Position numbers and translations under genes: made by a program. The notes beneath the pieces were generated by a model, which was not told the DNA's origin, ran no database searches, and worked only from the letters and a program-made list of their open reading frames with translations. DNA of 64,000 nt from Marivirga sericea (GTDB lineage Bacteria; Bacteroidota; Bacteroidia; Cytophagales; Cyclobacteriaceae). Shown one piece after another: positions 44,624 to 54,102 of the stretch. The stretch lies in the NCBI RefSeq assembly GCF_900177665.1, contig NZ_FXAW01000001.1, positions 496,001 through 560,000 on the forward strand. Reading direction: 5' to 3'. Every line of letters starts with the position of its first letter. The stretch's first letter is position 1.

Positions 44624-45844
44624 ATGGCTAAATGCTTTGCACTAATGGGTTGGAGTTTACCCGTAATTGAAAGTATGCAAAAACTCAATAAACCTTATGT
44701 GGTTGTATCATTTCCAGATTTCGAAAATTATGCTAAAGAGCATGATATTCCCTTCGTTTCTTATCAATTTGATGAATGGAGTGATACGTCCAATTCAATA
44801 GATTTGCATGAGAAATTAAAGCCTTTTGACGTAGATGTAGCTGTTCCATTATTTGAGGAAACAGTTGAATGGGCTGGTGCTTTAAATTCTATTTATAGAG
44901 ATGATCCTCGAGTTTTGAACCGCGCTTTCTTATTTAGAAATAAAGCGATGATGAAGCGGAAAGCATTAATTGGAGGTCTTAGAGTTGGCCTTTTTGAAGA
45001 AGTTTACAATAAGGAAGGCGTTAAAGCCTTTATGAAAAGATTAAATCAAGCTAATCTTCAAATAGAAAATGAAGAAGATAGTTGGGTACATGTTAAACCC
45101 TTTGCTTCAGCAGGAACAGTGGGACACAGATTATTACGTTCCATGAGTGATGTTGATGAAAAATGTCAAGAAGAAGATTTCCCTTGTTTAGCAGAAAGTC
45201 ACTTGCCTGGAAAAGAGTTTTCTTGCGAAGCCTACATTCACAAAGGAAAAATCAGGTTTTTAAACATCACCGAGTATGTGAAATTAGGATATTCTAATTT
45301 TATACCTGAAGGTAACCACCTACACACGAAGCGCGATAGAATCATGAAGGAGATGCAGAAGTTGGTTGATTTATTCGGTATAGAGTATGGAATGATTCAT
45401 CCAGAGTGGTTCTTGACCGAAGATGATACCTTGAGTTTTGGTGAGGTAGCTTGTCGTATTCCAGGCGGCCACATATTGGAACTTGCAGGGAAGGCGTACG
45501 ATTTTGACGCTCTAGGGGCATTTGTTTTATGCCATGATCCTAACATTACAGAAGAGGAATTAGATGAAATATTACCTCCTTTGGATGCAAGGCCTAAAAA
45601 CTTCTATGGAAACGTAATGATCTATCCTCATAAAAAGCAGATTTCTAAATTAGAAATACCTGACGAGTTGAAAGAGGAGCCTTATTTCTTAGATCACAAT
45701 TTGGTACCACCAATGAGCGGTCAAAAAATAAGTGATAGAGATGGTTTCGGTAACCATTTTGGTACAGTGAACTTTAAGGGAGAAGATCCCGATAGAATGG
45801 AGGAATTATTATTGCATTATGAGAATGTAGATTTCTACCATTAA
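44624..45844 (+). CDS. ATP-grasp family ligase-like protein
   Basis: A 406-residue ATP-grasp enzyme, expected to couple ATP hydrolysis to formation of an acyl-phosphate and then an amide or thioester. N-terminal domain up to about 110 (FALMGWSLPVIESMQKL, VAVPLFEETVEWAGALN), ATP-binding lysine in WVHVKPFASAGTVGHRLL, the grasp loop ESHLPGKEFSCEAYI, and the metal-binding end GEVACRIPGGHILELAG (E-x-x-x-R-x-PGG). The pattern is that of amino-acid or peptide ligases of the carbamoyl-phosphate-synthase-like class; the substrate is unknown. A terminator follows, but the genes next to it (papain-like protein, alanine racemase) suggest an amino-acid related role. Confidence 0.78.
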   Translation: MAKCFALMGWSLPVIESMQKLNKPYVVVSFPDFENYAKEHDIPFVSYQFDEWSDTSNSIDLHEKLKPFDVDVAVPLFEETVEWAGALNSIYRDDPRVLNRAFLFRNKAMMKRKALIGGLRVGLFEEVYNKEGVKAFMKRLNQANLQIENEEDSWVHVKPFASAGTVGHRLLRSMSDVDEKCQEEDFPCLAESHLPGKEFSCEAYIHKGKIRFLNITEYVKLGYSNFIPEGNHLHTKRDRIMKEMQKLVDLFGIEYGMIHPEWFLTEDDTLSFGEVACRIPGGHILELAGKAYDFDALGAFVLCHDPNITEEELDEILPPLDARPKNFYGNVMIYPHKKQISKLEIPDELKEEPYFLDHNLVPPMSGQKISDRDGFGNHFGTVNFKGEDPDRMEELLLHYENVDFYH

Positions 45845-46016: not shown

Positions 46017-48011
46017 ATGGGGAATCCAACATTAACAGAAAATAGTAGTCAGAAACTAATAGAACTCTTAGAAGAGTTCAAATCCGCCACGTCTTTAACT
46101 AAGCCTGAAAAAGCCAATAGACTAATGGGGCAAATTGATATCTTATGCGATTCTGTAGACGGATTGGGTGTGATTTACAATTTAATTGAGGAGATTTCTG
46201 AAGGAGGTATTTTCAACGAAACTCCCTGGGCAGACCCCTCTAAATTAGTTGCAGGCTTAGTACATTGGACATTGAAAAGTGGTCATCCAAATTCTACTAT
46301 AGAGCTTTTAAGTGAGCTGAGACTGATGGCAATCGCTAAGGGTGATTATAAAACTCCAAGTATTACAGCTGCAGAAGCAGATTCTTTTATTCAAGAGGTC
46401 TTAGTCGGAAATTTAGAATTTGTGTTCAATGACCCAGTAGAGGAGACTCGCTTGACAATGAGTGAACACGAACTTAGCAAAGTGCATAATTTGTTTAAAT
46501 TCTTGTCTAATCATATCCATTTAGATGACGTAAAAGATACTTTAGCAGAAGAGTTAACGCTAATTTGTGAACAGCGTCCGGTCGTAACCGAGAAGCAAAG
46601 AAAGATCATCGCTTTAGTAAAGGAAAAGATCGAATTGGACCCTAACAAGGAGGGTGATCAAAAGCTTTTGAGCTTCCAACGCAGTATTTATCGTCCTGCG
46701 CATCGCACCATAAATGTAGATGTGGCTGACTACAGAGCCGTACTTGAAAAATTAAATAATACTGAGCTGTATCTTGAATCTCAAGAAATGGGAGAATCGA
46801 TGTTGCGCTATGGCCTAGTAAGTGCATATCATGCAGTGTTGCTAAAATACTTGATTGAAAAGGAGTATTTTCGAACTGTACCGATCTGTCTAGGTCTTTC
46901 GCCAGTAGGTGAGAGTCGTTGGCAAGAACATACGTCTTACCTCAGTAAATTAATCCTAAGTACCGTTCATGTTGCAAATTCACAATGTATCTACGGACTT
47001 GCGAAAATGTTAGAAAACGGAATCATAGCTAGACAAGCCGTTCGTTCAGGTCTTTCGAATCTGGGAGAGATTAAACTGAATTCAGAAGTTGAAGAAAGAA
47101 TTTTAAAGTCATCCAATGACCCTAGACATGAGGTGACTGCAAGACAATATTTGATCGGTGCACTCTTTAGGATTCTAGGTCAACCACTAGGCGTAGGTCA
47201 AGGTAATAACCCAACTTGCCAAAGTGCAAGGGGCATCAGCATGTGGAGTCAGCATGCACCAGCAAAATTAATCAACATGGTGCAAACTGCTGCTGTTACA
47301 AATGATATTACTTTCCGTTTTGAGGGACAGGAAATTAAAGCCTCTACTACCGGTAAAGGTTTAGTACAAAACTTGGATTATAATCTGGATGCCGTTTCAG
47401 TTACATTGGTCCCTATGTTGGACCGAATATATAATGAAATGATGTTAAGAGGTTCGGGAAGAGCGGAAGACCCACATAAATGGGTTAACCCAGCACTATA
47501 TGGTCAGTGGATTCAGATTGGTTTTGCTTCAGCTTATGACTATTTATCTAACGCAATTGTTGATTTTGATGGTTTTGTTCGTGTTTTCTATGCGATGTGC
47601 CATCCAGACTATAACGGAAATCACAGATTGATTTATCCTAATCCGGTCGGTATATTTATTACAAGTTCAAAGGGTGATATGCTTGGATTCCATGCTGTCT
47701 CTTTATTAAGAGTAGATAAAGATCCTTCAGGTGAATACAGAGCTTACTTTTTGAATCCAAACAATGAAGGTAGACAGGATTGGGGGCAAGGAGTAAAGCC
47801 ATCGGTATATGGAAACGGAGAAAAGCATGGTGAATCGTCATTACCTATTCATCACTTTGCAGCTCGTACTTACGCCTTCCATTTTAATGACTTAGAAGCT
47901 GAGCTTTTAGTAGATAATGTACCGGCAAAAGAAGTAGAAAAAGTTAGAACATTAGCAAAAGATAGCTGGGGGAAATCTTATACCTGGTTGGAAACAAAGA
48001 AAAAATGGTAA
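46017..48011 (+). CDS. Uncharacterised 664-residue protein with papain-like Cys/His/Asn signature
   Basis: No named family is recognised. The first 390 residues are mostly helical. From about 390 the sequence LGVGQGNNPTCQSARGIS puts Gln395 six residues before Cys401, as in papain (Gln19/Cys25); GFHAVSLLRV gives His559 followed by strands, and YFLNPNNEGRQDWG gives Asn580 before a D-W-G turn, like the N-S-W-G of papain. The order Q-C-H-N and the local context argue for a papain-like cysteine peptidase or transacylase domain. No signal peptide is seen. The last 7 bases overlap the start of alr, so both are co-translated. Confidence 0.55.
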   Translation: MGNPTLTENSSQKLIELLEEFKSATSLTKPEKANRLMGQIDILCDSVDGLGVIYNLIEEISEGGIFNETPWADPSKLVAGLVHWTLKSGHPNSTIELLSELRLMAIAKGDYKTPSITAAEADSFIQEVLVGNLEFVFNDPVEETRLTMSEHELSKVHNLFKFLSNHIHLDDVKDTLAEELTLICEQRPVVTEKQRKIIALVKEKIELDPNKEGDQKLLSFQRSIYRPAHRTINVDVADYRAVLEKLNNTELYLESQEMGESMLRYGLVSAYHAVLLKYLIEKEYFRTVPICLGLSPVGESRWQEHTSYLSKLILSTVHVANSQCIYGLAKMLENGIIARQAVRSGLSNLGEIKLNSEVEERILKSSNDPRHEVTARQYLIGALFRILGQPLGVGQGNNPTCQSARGISMWSQHAPAKLINMVQTAAVTNDITFRFEGQEIKASTTGKGLVQNLDYNLDAVSVTLVPMLDRIYNEMMLRGSGRAEDPHKWVNPALYGQWIQIGFASAYDYLSNAIVDFDGFVRVFYAMCHPDYNGNHRLIYPNPVGIFITSSKGDMLGFHAVSLLRVDKDPSGEYRAYFLNPNNEGRQDWGQGVKPSVYGNGEKHGESSLPIHHFAARTYAFHFNDLEAELLVDNVPAKEVEKVRTLAKDSWGKSYTWLETKKKW

Positions 48012-49179: not shown

Positions 49180-49947
49180 ATGAACTACACAAATTATGAA
49201 CATACCGTCATAAAAGAGCTCGAGAAGAGGGCGGGAGATGTTTTATATTTGAAAGATGTAGCCCCGTATTTTATTTCTAAGAGCTGTTTGCAAATTTCTA
49301 CCTATACGCAGACTGCTTACATTCAAGTGGGTGATAATATGCAAGCTGCATTGTCTGAGTATTTTCAAATGTTAGTTTTTTTGAAGAAGTTAGAGGAAAA
49401 TGGTTCTTGTTTTTCCATTCCCTATACTCCCCTAGAAGACAACTTAGTGCAATTTGGAAACAGTGACTATTGTGAGTTTCAGCAAAATACCATTGCTGAT
49501 GGGGATTTATTAATTCAATTATTTCAATACGCGAATAAAAAATATGTGATAGCACCGAACGCTTCGGATCAATTTAACCTGTCCCCAAAAAAATCTAAAA
49601 TCAATTTCATTATTCCAAGTTTTATTCTCTTGCTTCTATTTATATTTATTGGGTCAATTGCTTATCAATCTTACTTGGATAGTAATAGACTTAAGCTACA
49701 GCAACAAGCTGTAGAAGCTAATTTGAAGGAGCAAACATTAAAAATTGGTTTGCTTTCTGATCAAATTCAAGTTCAGAAAGAGCTACAAAATGAAAGCTTG
49801 AGAGCATTTCAAAGCAAAATTGATATCATTAATTCTTCTCTCGAAAACCAGAATAAGACTTTGCGGATTATTAACTATTGGAATCAAAAGCAGTCTGTTC
49901 AAATAGCAGATTTGCTAGAAGTTATACGTTATGATTCCTTACAATGA
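49180..49947 (+). CDS. Single-pass membrane protein with coiled coil
   Basis: A 255-residue protein with no recognised domain. The first 140 residues have KELEKRAGDVLYLKDVAPYF and YEC-type strands (FGNSDYCEFQQNT); a membrane helix at about residues 143-165 (FIIPSFILLLLFIFIGSIAY) is followed by a long coiled coil (LKLQQQAVEANLKEQTLKIG, LRAFQSKIDIINSSLENQNK). It starts 17 bases after alr and is probably in the same operon. Without a signal peptide the N-terminal domain is expected in the cytoplasm and the coiled coil in the periplasm. Confidence 0.6.
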   Translation: MNYTNYEHTVIKELEKRAGDVLYLKDVAPYFISKSCLQISTYTQTAYIQVGDNMQAALSEYFQMLVFLKKLEENGSCFSIPYTPLEDNLVQFGNSDYCEFQQNTIADGDLLIQLFQYANKKYVIAPNASDQFNLSPKKSKINFIIPSFILLLLFIFIGSIAYQSYLDSNRLKLQQQAVEANLKEQTLKIGLLSDQIQVQKELQNESLRAFQSKIDIINSSLENQNKTLRIINYWNQKQSVQIADLLEVIRYDSLQ

Positions 49948-50356: not shown

Positions 50357-51718
50357 TTAAATCTCTTCAGCTGCTATTCTCTGAAAACTAAAGGTAGCAT
50401 TACTCACAATGCTTTGACCGTCAACTTCAAAAATTGGGTATGCCATAAATTTTACAGGACTTGAATTTGGAGCTGGTTCAAATTCCAAATCTCTACCTTT
50501 TGTAAATTCAATCCTGTTTGCAGGATGTCTACCGAAGTAGTATGTTGCCAAGGCTGTGTATTTGTTCCCTTCACTTATATCTACTGGCCACCATTTATCT
50601 TCTGCATAGAATTCTGCCCAGCAATGATAGCCATTGATACCACCTTCATTTCTGTCAGACGGAATAGCTGCACCAATTGCAAAACGAGCAGGAATACTGG
50701 CTGTTCTTGCTAAAGAAATAAAAAGCGAATGGAACTCCGTACAATTTCCTGTTTTGGAATCACAGGCGTAGACGGCATCACCAGTACCATATTTCACATT
50801 TTTGGCATAACGCATATTATCTATGATGTAATCGTAAATAGCGCGGGCTTGAATGAGCTTATTATCATTTTCCATTCCAGCCGTGGCTTCTGCCACTATC
50901 TCTTTGAAGCGCTGTGTTCCCACAGGCATCAGTACATTTTCATTCAAATATTTTGTCAGTTGGGGGTTTTGTTCCGAGTACGCACTCTTTTCTATCCTTT
51001 TTACGTGGTAAGTAATCTTTATATTTTTGTTACTGTGCTTTGGCCCTAATTGAAGAAATAATATTTTATTACCATATTCTTTTTCAAGTATCATCTGATC
51101 TTGACCGGAGATTTGCATACTTTTTATTTCAATATCTTGAAACTGATCAGTTTGTGCAATGGGTATCCAAACTTTTGCCTTTTCTTCTATTGCCGGCAAA
51201 GTTGTTTCATAGTAGAATTCAAATTCATCCTGGCCTTCTATTACGCCAAGTAGTTCGTTCGAAGCGGATTCAATAGGCACTCTATGCCAGGTTTTATCTT
51301 TTTTTTGTTTCCAACTATAGAAAGGTTTTCCGTTTAGTTTGTGAACTGTTGTTTGGGTTACATCCATTGCTCCTGATTTACCGTCCATGAAGAAATCAAC
51401 ATCGTAAACATCTCCCGACTCATCTGCTAAATCCACGCACGCAAAGTGGCGATTCGGACCAAGATTAGAAAGGTATTCAGTATGAACTCTCACCAGCTTT
51501 AGCCTTAGCTCTTTATTGTCATCTTTCACATGAAAGTATCCGTCAGCTTCCTTAGTTTTATTAGCTATGTAGGCTTTAATTCCAGATTCTATATCTGCTA
51601 TATTAACAGTAGGGACTGATTTCGAATCTTCTTTAGTGCTACTTTCTTTCTTTTCGCTAGGTTGGCAAGACAGTAATAGAAATGAAAAGAAGAGTAGGAA
51701 TGATGTAGTTTTAAGCAT
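50357..51718 (-). CDS. Transglutaminase-like lipoprotein
   Basis: A 453-residue lipoprotein (MLKTTSFLLFFSFLLLSC). An N-terminal beta-rich part precedes a transglutaminase-like fold at about 285-400: Cys in SKTGNCTEFHSLFISLART, His in GYHCWAEFYAEDKWWP and Asp in PVDISEGN form the Cys-His-Asp triad. Such domains act as cysteine peptidases or acyl transferases in the periplasm. Linker peptides Gly/Asn-rich follow. No link to the neighbours is evident; it reads towards the EHPS gene. Confidence 0.8.
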   Translation of the reverse strand: MLKTTSFLLFFSFLLLSCQPSEKKESSTKEDSKSVPTVNIADIESGIKAYIANKTKEADGYFHVKDDNKELRLKLVRVHTEYLSNLGPNRHFACVDLADESGDVYDVDFFMDGKSGAMDVTQTTVHKLNGKPFYSWKQKKDKTWHRVPIESASNELLGVIEGQDEFEFYYETTLPAIEEKAKVWIPIAQTDQFQDIEIKSMQISGQDQMILEKEYGNKILFLQLGPKHSNKNIKITYHVKRIEKSAYSEQNPQLTKYLNENVLMPVGTQRFKEIVAEATAGMENDNKLIQARAIYDYIIDNMRYAKNVKYGTGDAVYACDSKTGNCTEFHSLFISLARTASIPARFAIGAAIPSDRNEGGINGYHCWAEFYAEDKWWPVDISEGNKYTALATYYFGRHPANRIEFTKGRDLEFEPAPNSSPVKFMAYPIFEVDGQSIVSNATFSFQRIAAEEI

Positions 51719-51780: not shown

Positions 51781-54102
51781 TTATTTTTTGCCTTTTAGTT
51801 TATCTAATTCCTTTTGAAGTTTTTCTTTATCTTCTTGAGCTTTTTTGAGTTCAGTAATATCTTTTGAGACTGTAGAAACTCCGATAACTTCACCTTTATC
51901 ATTTGTAATAGGTTCGCACCGAGTTTCAATTGATAAATTACCAGTCTGAAGCTCCCTAACTTCCTCTATTCGTAGTTTTTCTCCAGCTAAAGCCCTGTCA
52001 TATCGTGCTTTCCATTTTTCTAATTGGTCCTTCGGTAAGATTGTTAATATACTTAACCCTGGTTTCAGTTCGATTCCGGATTGTTTAAATCGATTTTTCA
52101 GGACATCATTTACTACTAAAATTTCATAGTCAGTATTAATAGCAAAATAAGTGTCTTCCGTATTATTAATCATACCGTTCAGCACAAACCCTCTTTGTGC
52201 CAGCTTTTCGGCATTCTCCTCTCTTTGCAATTCCAGCTGCTTTTCTTTGGTGATATCTCTAGAGAAGACGGATGCCCCTGATATGGCACCATCTTTTTGT
52301 TTGATCGGATGAATGTCGTAATGACGATACGTATCTTCACCTTTTACGCTACTTTTGATAGTAAACGAAAGAATCTCTCCTCTAAATACGCGATCATAAT
52401 ATCCTTTCCATTCATCTCTGACATCTCCAAGCATATCTAACGCATTGCTGCCTTCCTTCATTTTTTCGTACTGAGTGCCCTTATATCGATTTTTAATAAC
52501 ATCATTCATCAAAATAATTTTGTAATCGGTGTTAATCAAAATTATAGAATCTGTTGTATTATTAATTAAGGCATTGAGGTTGGCTTCTTTTTCTGCCATC
52601 TCCGTTTGAGCTCGTCCCATTTCTTCTTGGGTAGCCTCCATTTCCTCCATATTTTGACGCATTTCTTCTTCCTGAGAACGCATCTGCTCAGTCATTTCCT
52701 GTGATTCACTTAAGAGTTTCTTGGTTCGTTCATTGGTTTTGGCACTGGCAATAGTAGAAGCAATATTCTCTCCTAATTTCTCTACAAACTCAATTTTATA
52801 TTCAGCTATGTCTTGAATTGAGGCAATTTCAACCACTCCCTTGATTTCTTCATTAATTTTCAAAGGAACAATTAAAACGCACCTAGGAAGAGTTTCTCCC
52901 AAGCCAGACTTGATTTCTACGTAATCTTCAGGGACTTCAGTGAGGTAAATCCGATCACCTTCTTGCACTGCTTGTCCTACTAAACCTTCCCCTACGGCAA
53001 TTTCCTTTTTCAATCTTTTTCTACGTTCGTAGGCATAGGCCGATTCTAATATAATCTTAGCTTCTTCATCTTCATCTTCCGGCTCAGTCAAAACAAACAA
53101 TGCCCCTTGGTTGGCATCCATGAATTTCACTAAATTGGAAACAATCTGATAGGATAATTCCTCAATATTGTCATTATTGTTTCTCAGAATATCTGCAAAT
53201 TTTGCTAAACCTTCATTTACCCAACTGCGCTCTTTATCGGCTTTTGCAGAATCTTGCATCTTAGCACGCATTTGGAGTAGGGAGGATGCTAAAGAATTAT
53301 CATGATCTTTTTCCAATCCTTTATAATCAGCGTCTAATTGACCTTCACCAATTTTCGTGGTGAAATCCGTAGCATTCTCTAAAATCTCGGCCATTGAGTT
53401 AATATTTTGAGCAATATAACCCAACTCATTTTTGCTATTATAGTCAATTTTTTCTGTTAAATTTCCTTTTGACAATTCTCTAGCTGAAAGTGAGATTTTG
53501 TAGATCGGGTTAAGAATTAAATATTTTACAATACAGTAAATAAAAGAACTTAGTAAAAAAATATAAAGGTAGAGGAGAATCATATACAGGGATTGAGCCT
53601 CTTGTTCTTCTTCATTTATACGATCTATCAATGTCTTTATTTTGGCATGCTTTGCAACAAATGCATTGTATTTTTTCTCCAGGCTTTGTTTTGCTTCCTG
53701 AATGGTCTTTTCACCATCTTGTATGTTGTAAAGCTCTTCTTTTAATGGAGTCCAATAGACCATTAAATCTTCAATTTCTGCTTTCAACTTATGATTGACT
53801 TCAACTTCTATAGTTTCTTCACCTAATTGACCCCCTTTGGTGTATGCAAAGAGAATTCTTTCCACTGCTCTAATGTTGGAACCGATGTTTTCTTTATTTT
53901 CACTTATATATTGGGGTGCTAGAGGAGAGCTAATATTGTCTAAACTACCGATGCTTTTTGATCTTAGTAAACTTTGTTGATTAATACCAGTGTTCATAAT
54001 GACCAGATAGATCGCAATTGCAAGCAGAAATATTCCCACGCCCATAGAATAGGCCAAATTTCTAATTTTCCAATCACAAAGGTTTCTTCTCCAGTTTGCC
54101 AT
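51781..54102 (-). CDS. HAMP/GAF/PAS sensor protein without a kinase domain
   Basis: A 773-residue membrane sensor. TM1 at about 17-37 and TM2 at about 172-195 enclose a periplasmic helical domain. A HAMP domain (about 195-250; LILNPIYKISLSARELSKGN) is followed by a GAF domain (about 310-460), a coiled coil rich in Glu/Met (TEQMRSQEEEMRQNMEEMEA), two PAS domains (about 505-625 and 645-760; ITKEKQ and ITELKK ends) and a short coiled-coil tail. There is no HisKA, HATPase, GGDEF or methyl-accepting signature, so output must come from a partner. The closing coil DKEKLQKELDKLKGKK is short. Confidence 0.75.
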   Translation of the reverse strand: MANWRRNLCDWKIRNLAYSMGVGIFLLAIAIYLVIMNTGINQQSLLRSKSIGSLDNISSPLAPQYISENKENIGSNIRAVERILFAYTKGGQLGEETIEVEVNHKLKAEIEDLMVYWTPLKEELYNIQDGEKTIQEAKQSLEKKYNAFVAKHAKIKTLIDRINEEEQEAQSLYMILLYLYIFLLSSFIYCIVKYLILNPIYKISLSARELSKGNLTEKIDYNSKNELGYIAQNINSMAEILENATDFTTKIGEGQLDADYKGLEKDHDNSLASSLLQMRAKMQDSAKADKERSWVNEGLAKFADILRNNNDNIEELSYQIVSNLVKFMDANQGALFVLTEPEDEDEEAKIILESAYAYERRKRLKKEIAVGEGLVGQAVQEGDRIYLTEVPEDYVEIKSGLGETLPRCVLIVPLKINEEIKGVVEIASIQDIAEYKIEFVEKLGENIASTIASAKTNERTKKLLSESQEMTEQMRSQEEEMRQNMEEMEATQEEMGRAQTEMAEKEANLNALINNTTDSIILINTDYKIILMNDVIKNRYKGTQYEKMKEGSNALDMLGDVRDEWKGYYDRVFRGEILSFTIKSSVKGEDTYRHYDIHPIKQKDGAISGASVFSRDITKEKQLELQREENAEKLAQRGFVLNGMINNTEDTYFAINTDYEILVVNDVLKNRFKQSGIELKPGLSILTILPKDQLEKWKARYDRALAGEKLRIEEVRELQTGNLSIETRCEPITNDKGEVIGVSTVSKDITELKKAQEDKEKLQKELDKLKGKK

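Follow-up and report, generated by a model that had tools for sequence, protein, structure and literature searches.

A gene of Marivirga sericea encodes a protein of 664 amino acids (aa) that is predicted to combine a helical N-terminal part with a C-terminal papain-like domain, and whose very probable partner is an amino-acid ligase encoded by the preceding gene. The gene lies in a stretch of 64,000 nucleotides of contig NZ_FXAW01000001.1 (positions 496,001 to 560,000 of the forward strand; hereafter the window, meaning the whole stretch analysed) and is followed by the gene of a racemase with altered specificity residues. The chance is about even, in our view, that the protein is an enzyme of the papain superfamily, acts in the cytosol and cooperates with this ATP-grasp ligase in making a small ornithine-derived peptide or amide. 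The ligase gene, the papain-fold gene and, where present, the racemase gene are referred to below as the unit.

Conserved residues of the papain-fold protein

The open reading frame (ORF) of the papain-fold protein starts with ATG, and the frame complementary to 46017-48011 is rich in stop codons. As neither a hydrophobic N-terminal stretch nor a signal peptide can be seen by eye, the protein is probably cytosolic. Searches of Pfam, NCBIfam and PDB sequences with it gave chance-level matches only, and a PDB search with the profile of the family gave zero matches. Single members of the A2 alignment (58 sequences) drew scattered weak Pfam matches, the best with an E of 0.0014, none of them papain-like among the 25 of the 41 families listed. 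The first-pass annotation had described the N-terminal 390 or so residues as unlike any known family, and Pfam and NCBIfam indeed return nothing for them beyond a chance Pfam match with an E of 2.

That annotation had also proposed a papain-like catalytic signature. Gln395, Cys401, His559 and Asn580 are found in the translation exactly at the positions and in the contexts claimed, and the Gln395-Cys401 spacing (Q-x5-C) is that of papain. All four residues are unvarying in 64 of 64 selected sequences, a set that includes the window's own protein and two tandem second copies from Bacilli. Most of this set is biased by one of the scan patterns, GQG[NL]NPTC, which itself contains Q395 and C401; 24 of the 64 carry the other pattern (DPHKWVN) alone and 2 carry neither, and all four residues are still kept in them. 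They are likewise kept in 25 of 25 homologues collected free of patterns by profile or whole-protein search, five loci being shared with the 64. Judged from these alignments, the signature appears to be conserved by more than chance. In A2, 47 of the 664 positions are invariant, and 38 of these lie beyond residue 380; C401 is the only invariant cysteine, and H487, H559 and H622 are the only invariant histidines. The mean column identity is 69% in the catalytic half versus 50% in the N-terminal part.

Predicted fold

The AlphaFold2 model has a mean predicted local distance difference test score (pLDDT) of 90.2 for the whole protein and of 89.5 for residues 352-664 modelled alone. The N-terminal part is all-helical. 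In the C-terminal domain the elements follow the order of papain, with C401 opening a helix, H559 located in a long strand and N580 placed after the next strand. When the domain alone was compared by Foldseek, the best match was the core of calpain II (E 8.8e-4); by our reading 45 of the best 50 rows are papain-like, and the other five have an E of 0.2 or worse. In the VIA comparison of the domain, all 50 rows listed belong to the papain superfamily by their titles or, for a few of them (e.g. 6a0q and 8ssk), by what we take them to be, with Z ranging from 7.8 to 4.5. Calpain cores score mostly 6.5-7.8, a C39 peptidase 6.9, and staphopains and the phytochelatin synthase Alr0975 about 6; ZUFSP, bleomycin hydrolase and cathepsin B are further names in the list. 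Calpain cores also come out on top for the whole model (Z 7.0), where the rows over the N-terminal helical half are mostly helical-repeat proteins with Z of 4.6-6.4, too weak for naming a fold. Because the VIA neighbour list is so uniform, and despite its modest Z values, the model supports a papain-superfamily (clan CA) fold for the C-terminal domain. The papain-like fold anticipated by the first-pass annotation is thus supported by the invariance of the four residues and by the structural neighbours of the domain alone.

Spread of the family

A scan of GTDB species genomes with the patterns DPHKWVN and GQG[NL]NPTC gave at least 592 matching stretches, in which one gene may count twice. The most similar 80 were retained, so that counts over loci favour Bacteroidota; the resulting 86-locus set counts the window as one of its loci, holds one contig twice (L003 and L060) and contains near-duplicates. 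By their titles, the best 80 loci come from Bacteroidota (Marivirga, Belliella, Cyclobacterium, Fulvivirga), Balneolaceae, Gemmatimonadetes, Bacillaceae, Planococcus and a planctomycete metagenome-assembled genome. The family is patchy: counting the window's genome, which holds a single copy, it occurs in 3 of 194 genomes of the window's order and in 5 of 395 genomes of the phylum, one match of the latter being marginal (G231, 18.3 bits), and it occurs in 22 of 150 genomes of the order of Rossellomorea vietnamensis (G577). A search of phages gave no match to the family, and the sole match among plasmids is one Halomonas replicon. This copy (Halomonas sp. PA16-9, NZ_CP040452.1:1205988-1223820; L108) lies on a replicon of 1.8 Mb and is 37.5% identical over 91% of the query. 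Tandem second copies in Bacilli (L067:8271-10145 and L069:7338-9158) are somewhat shorter and retain the catalytic residues; other Bacilli genomes hold a second copy at a separate site.

Strict pairing with an ATP-grasp ligase

The ATP-grasp gene ends 172 bases upstream of the papain-fold gene. Its product matches PF13535 with an E of 1.8e-5 and 24.8 bits, slightly under the cut-off of 27. The ligase profile (A3) picks out solved L-amino acid ligases, aligning over 61-311 with 4wd3 (E 3.6e-11) and matching 3vot with an E of 1.5e-4; unlike these enzymes, the ligase of the unit has a strict papain-fold partner. An ATP-grasp gene is seen in 80 of the 86 papain-fold loci, on the same strand in 79 of the 80 and at a gap of less than 250 bases in 72 of the 80. 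Among the six loci without it, L006, L036, L047 and L052 begin at a contig end, and for L003 and L060 (one contig) the ligase is found on another contig of the same genome.

Both genes or neither were found in 344 of 344 genomes (25 with both, 319 with neither, none with a single one), at thresholds of E up to 1e-3 for the papain-fold protein and up to 1e-40 for the ligase. The genomes with both are 3 of 194 in the window's order and 22 of 150 in that of R. vietnamensis; one of them, G093, holds the two genes on different contigs. Furthermore, the pairwise distances of the ligase and papain-fold proteins are correlated (r 0.85 over 77 loci), a value that 0 of 999 permutations reached. Given this strict pairing, the correlated distances and the likeness to L-amino acid ligases, the papain-fold protein therefore very probably acts with an amino-acid ligase.

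A racemase with altered specificity residues

The first-pass annotation had noted that the papain-fold gene overlaps that of an alanine racemase, and this holds: the next ORF begins at 48005, giving an overlap of 7 nucleotides. In Bacteroidota, the papain-fold gene is usually followed by a racemase gene. Such a gene is seen in 56 of the 86 loci, always on the strand of the papain-fold gene, and the overlap of 7 nucleotides recurs in 23 of these 56 (window's locus and near-duplicates included).

The racemase of the window matches TIGR00492 with 285.8 bits against a cut-off of 168. All 54 full-length cassette racemases keep the lysine of the pyridoxal 5'-phosphate (PLP) cofactor, Lys37. In the numbering of the Geobacillus alanine racemase, and with two Bacilli racemases taken as ordinary alanine racemases for the alignment reference, all 54 replace the equivalents of Lys129 by Glu, of Leu137 by Thr and of what we take to be Asp313 by Asn, and all 54 have lost the gate residue Tyr354 (Asn in 53, Ala in 1). 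According to the passages of PMC3485190 dealing with these positions, the inner tyrosines 265 and 354 of the Geobacillus enzyme confine alanine racemase to alanine, the site of Tyr354 helping to set the size of the substrate. In lysine-preferring racemases, it is reported there, Tyr354 gives way to Thr or Ala and Lys129 lacks a counterpart, while the serine racemase VanT has Asn in place of Tyr354. The cassette racemases thus resemble broad-specificity, lysine and VanT serine racemases, as portrayed there, in having lost the gate tyrosine and the carbamylated lysine, and VanT in having Asn at the gate. Unlike Lyr and Bar, whose residue next to a conserved Arg is Asn, they have Thr in its place, and the racemase of the window scores 243.6 bits against the VanT-G model, for which the cut-off is 460. 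Because the equivalents of Lys129, Leu137, Asp313 and Tyr354 are all replaced, we infer a substrate larger than alanine for the cassette racemase.

Two further strong racemase matches of the window's genome, one in a frame of 609 aa and one in a frame of 396 aa, might supply the cell wall; the 609-aa frame, at a contig end, is perhaps a MurF fusion. At C24:137500-142000 of this genome (L135), another pair of racemase-family matches has frames of 396 and 373 aa; the 396-aa frame retains an NYE motif that resembles the usual gate tyrosine, and a similar pair of racemase matches is present in G009. The five Bacilli genomes G574-G578 each have at least one strong racemase match.

Genes for free ornithine

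Many Bacteroidota make arginine via acylated intermediates, without free ornithine. ArgJ yields free ornithine, so that any consumer of it would require a dedicated set of genes with ArgJ. Such a set, argB/argD/argC/argJ or those of them in view, adjoins the unit on its own strand in L002 and L137 (one genome), L021, L022, L029, L032, L035 and G411, variously upstream or downstream of it and with the shortest gaps at about 30 bases. It is partial in L022, where argB has no match, and in L032, with argC and argJ only. ArgB, ArgD and ArgC of L021 and ArgJ of L035 match NCBIfam above cut-off; ArgJ of L021 is interrupted by the end of the locus. In three other unit-bearing genomes (G738, G583 and G737) argD-argC-argJ lies away from the unit, with argB seen in two of them, and a second, lower-scoring ArgC is present too; beside this set argG had no match, argF and argH not being searched for. 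Eight Cyclobacterium loci with argC/argG/argD beside the unit were not counted as evidence, being of one genus, on the opposite strand and inclusive of argG.

Among 27 unit-bearing Bacteroidota, which were hand-picked from the loci and include three genomes of the phylum outside the window's order, ArgJ is full-length in 21, present as fragments in 2 (G746 and G294) and absent from 4 (G000, the window's own genome, and G739, G754 and G755). All 51 unit-free genomes examined in the window's order lack it. Contrasts are seen even within families, with ArgJ present in G093 and missing from G001, G021 and G037 (family f2), and present in G009 and missing from G028 (family f10). ArgJ itself may therefore mark the pathway of the unit in this order. 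Bacillus subtilis, taken as a control, has ArgJ; the combination of ArgJ and own racemases in Bacilli would fit the bare two-gene unit there.

Proposed reaction and alternatives

What, then, would a papain-fold enzyme do beside such a ligase? The ligase partner, the ornithine link and the altered racemase together shift its likely role from that of a protease to that of a biosynthetic enzyme. We read the reaction, its substrates, the product and the role of the product from the computed fold class, invariant residues, ligase pairing, ArgJ co-occurrence and altered racemase residues. In the proposed scheme, the ligase would join ornithine to another amino acid via an acyl-phosphate, as its family suggests. 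The papain-fold enzyme would then form an acyl-enzyme with the product at Cys401, His559 and Asn580 acting as the base and Gln395 lying in the oxyanion hole, and would pass the acyl group to an amine, resulting in transpeptidation or in cyclisation to a lactam. In Bacteroidota, free ornithine would be supplied by argB-argD-argC-argJ, and the third gene would provide a D-amino acid, which is probably D-ornithine or else some other residue that exceeds alanine in size.

Several observations weigh against this scheme. The VIA Z values all lie below 8, modest by the tool's own note, and so speak for a fold class only, while Foldseek with the whole model gave nothing under an E of 0.001, helical-repeat and unrelated proteins leading its list. 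Nothing in the sequence separates a transferase from a hydrolase. The racemase is missing from 30 of the 86 loci, including all 17 Bacilli loci and the Gemmatimonadetes-titled ones, and hence is not essential to the core; some of the others end at contig ends, and some Gemmatimonadetes-titled loci end soon after the papain-fold homologue. Nor is the substrate of a racemase set by the gate residue on its own: in the part of PMC3485190 concerned with it, introducing the tyrosine changed the Lys/Arg preference of the lysine racemase Lyr little, though it abolished the activity of Bar on Arg. The association of ArgJ with the unit (Fisher p 5e-14) is inflated by kinship, as related genomes are not independent, and for want of an ArgJ match the window's own genome would need another source of ornithine. 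Finally, apart from the arg genes, no neighbour cluster occurs in more than 10 of 87 loci, and no transporter or regulator there hints at a role.

The strict pairing would suit a writer and an eraser equally well, and papain-superfamily enzymes are mostly hydrolases. The main rival explanation is accordingly that the papain-fold enzyme hydrolyses the very peptide bond that the ligase has formed, be it on a metabolite or at the tail of a protein, in a reversible modification or in turnover of the product; the helical N-terminal domain of the model could bind a protein for this purpose. We regard it as unlikely, though to be taken seriously: the higher conservation of the catalytic half (69% vs 50%) suggests one small substrate, the ligase resembles those acting on free amino acids, and the ornithine-supply genes and the racemase suit synthesis better. 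Unlikely to a slightly greater degree, to our mind, is a view in which the third gene encodes a normal alanine racemase and the product carries D-alanine, and in which ornithine is no substrate, ArgJ co-occurring by shared ancestry or lifestyle. The TIGR00492 score above cut-off and the lack of ArgJ in four unit-bearing genomes speak for it; it has to reckon with the four replaced specificity residues, with the two other racemase matches that could serve the cell wall and with the linkage of arg genes to the unit in several lineages.

The remaining two alternatives make the protein a protease. Given that its nearest solved folds are proteases, it might found a new family of the papain superfamily and act as a general peptidase in the cytosol, its neighbours being metabolic bystanders; this seems improbable to us, because its presence and absence track the ligase in 344 of 344 genomes and because 47 invariant positions over 58 sequences exceed what a broad protease should need. 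Membership in peptidase family C1 (papain or bleomycin hydrolase type) is disfavoured and, we think, very improbable. The likeness to C1 peptidases drawn by the first-pass annotation stands at the level of motifs, namely the Q/C/H/N set with its spacing and the His and Asn contexts, and does not extend to the level of profiles. In comparisons by hhalign with 12 and 11 C1-type sequences of the phylum, the probability was 1.4% and 2.3% (P 0.035 and 0.021), and the alignments span 18 and 15 columns only, the first of them being a match of motif length in register with the C1 cysteine. PF00112 is not listed for the protein at E up to 10, the window's genome has no PF00112 match at an E of 0.001, and the signal peptide is lacking by eye.

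Coming back to synthesis from ornithine, a wider proposal is put forward tentatively, and we think it rather less likely than its opposite. In probably hundreds of species of several phyla, the ligase and the papain-fold transferase might turn ornithine, which in Bacteroidota the gate-altered racemase would racemise, into a peptide-like solute that is abundant in the cell and may act as a compatible solute in bacteria of marine, saline and soda-lake habitats, with a dedicated argBDCJ operon maintained just to feed it. The osmolyte idea is not supported in the order of R. vietnamensis by ectoine synthase, which was matched in 8 of 22 genomes with the unit and in 36 of 128 without it (p 0.45). 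The 44 matches include fragments, and one of them falls below the cut-off. The saline and soda-lake flavour is a reading of record titles only.

Among the literature matches listed, no title or abstract opening describes a ligase-papain-racemase unit, and a ligase-papain pathway tied to ornithine is apparently undescribed. The papain-fold family, to which the searched copies of Pfam and NCBIfam gave no match, would be one member of an obligate ligase-papain pair whose precursor can be predicted. With this precursor, a new metabolite could be searched for directly in culturable Cyclobacterium, Belliella, Marivirga and Planococcus. The pathway would predict why some Cytophagales carry ArgJ, absent from the 51 unit-free genomes examined, and the unit offers a racemase of probable new specificity.

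Comparison with known papain-fold enzymes

The substrate of phytochelatin synthase is made by amino-acid ligases, and the ATP-grasp ligase BtrJ serves the butirosin pathway of BtrH. In the sections of PMC10318531 and PMC2922099 that treat them, both enzymes provide precedents for a non-proteolytic use of the papain fold: the phytochelatin synthase (C83) Alr0975 performs acyl-enzyme chemistry on a small peptide (PMC10318531), and BtrH (BtrH_N, PF14399) is a papain-fold acyltransferase of butirosin synthesis (PMC2922099, PMC10318531). Phytochelatin synthase rows in the VIA list have Z of 5.7-6.0 over 148-154 residues, with 2bu3 (Z 6.0, 148 residues, root-mean-square deviation (rmsd) 4.2) tied with staphopains. 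Unlike phytochelatin synthase, the 664-aa protein has no PF05023 match (E up to 10), no glutathione context that we could see, a large helical N-terminal domain and a strict ATP-grasp pairing. It differs from BtrH in having no PF14399 match (E up to 10) and, at the unit loci, no recurring cluster of small proteins that would hint at an acyl carrier protein, ORFs below 90 aa being outside the clustering. The calpain protease core (C2) is the best VIA neighbour, with a Z of 7.8 and 197 residues aligned at an rmsd of 4.4, the identity being 12% only.

Neighbouring genes in the window

Table 1. Features of the unit and its surroundings, in window coordinates
Feature	Position	Strand	Basis
ATP-grasp amino-acid ligase, 406 aa, obligate partner	44624..45844	+	PF13535; profile match to L-amino acid ligases
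Papain-fold protein, 664 aa	46017..48011	+	residues 1-380 helical, 381-664 papain-like
Gln395, putative oxyanion-hole residue (presumed role)	47199..47201	+	invariant 64/64, 25/25
Cys401, putative nucleophile, first residue of helix 401-413	47217..47219	+	invariant 64/64, 25/25; model
His559, putative general base, strand 555-568	47691..47693	+	invariant 64/64, 25/25; model
Asn580, putative third triad residue, just after strand 574-579	47754..47756	+	invariant 64/64, 25/25; model
Alanine-racemase-family PLP enzyme, 385 aa, altered specificity residues	48005..49162	+	PF01168/PF00842; TIGR00492
255-aa protein, one likely membrane segment and coiled-coil-like tail (by eye)	49180-49947	+	no Pfam match
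Transglutaminase-core protein	50357-51718	-	PF01841
HAMP-GAF-PAS protein, no kinase domain match	51781-54102	-	Pfam scan

The gene of the 255-aa protein starts 17 bases after that of the racemase. It is not part of the wider unit; its close relatives are in L004 and L006, and weak ones (21 and 26 bits) lie beside the units of L021 and L029. Around the Bacilli units, the 10 neighbouring proteins scanned belong to unrelated housekeeping, transport and other genes. The transglutaminase-core protein, a few kilobases from the papain-fold gene, has another papain-related fold and among the loci recurs in L004, L006 and L034 only.

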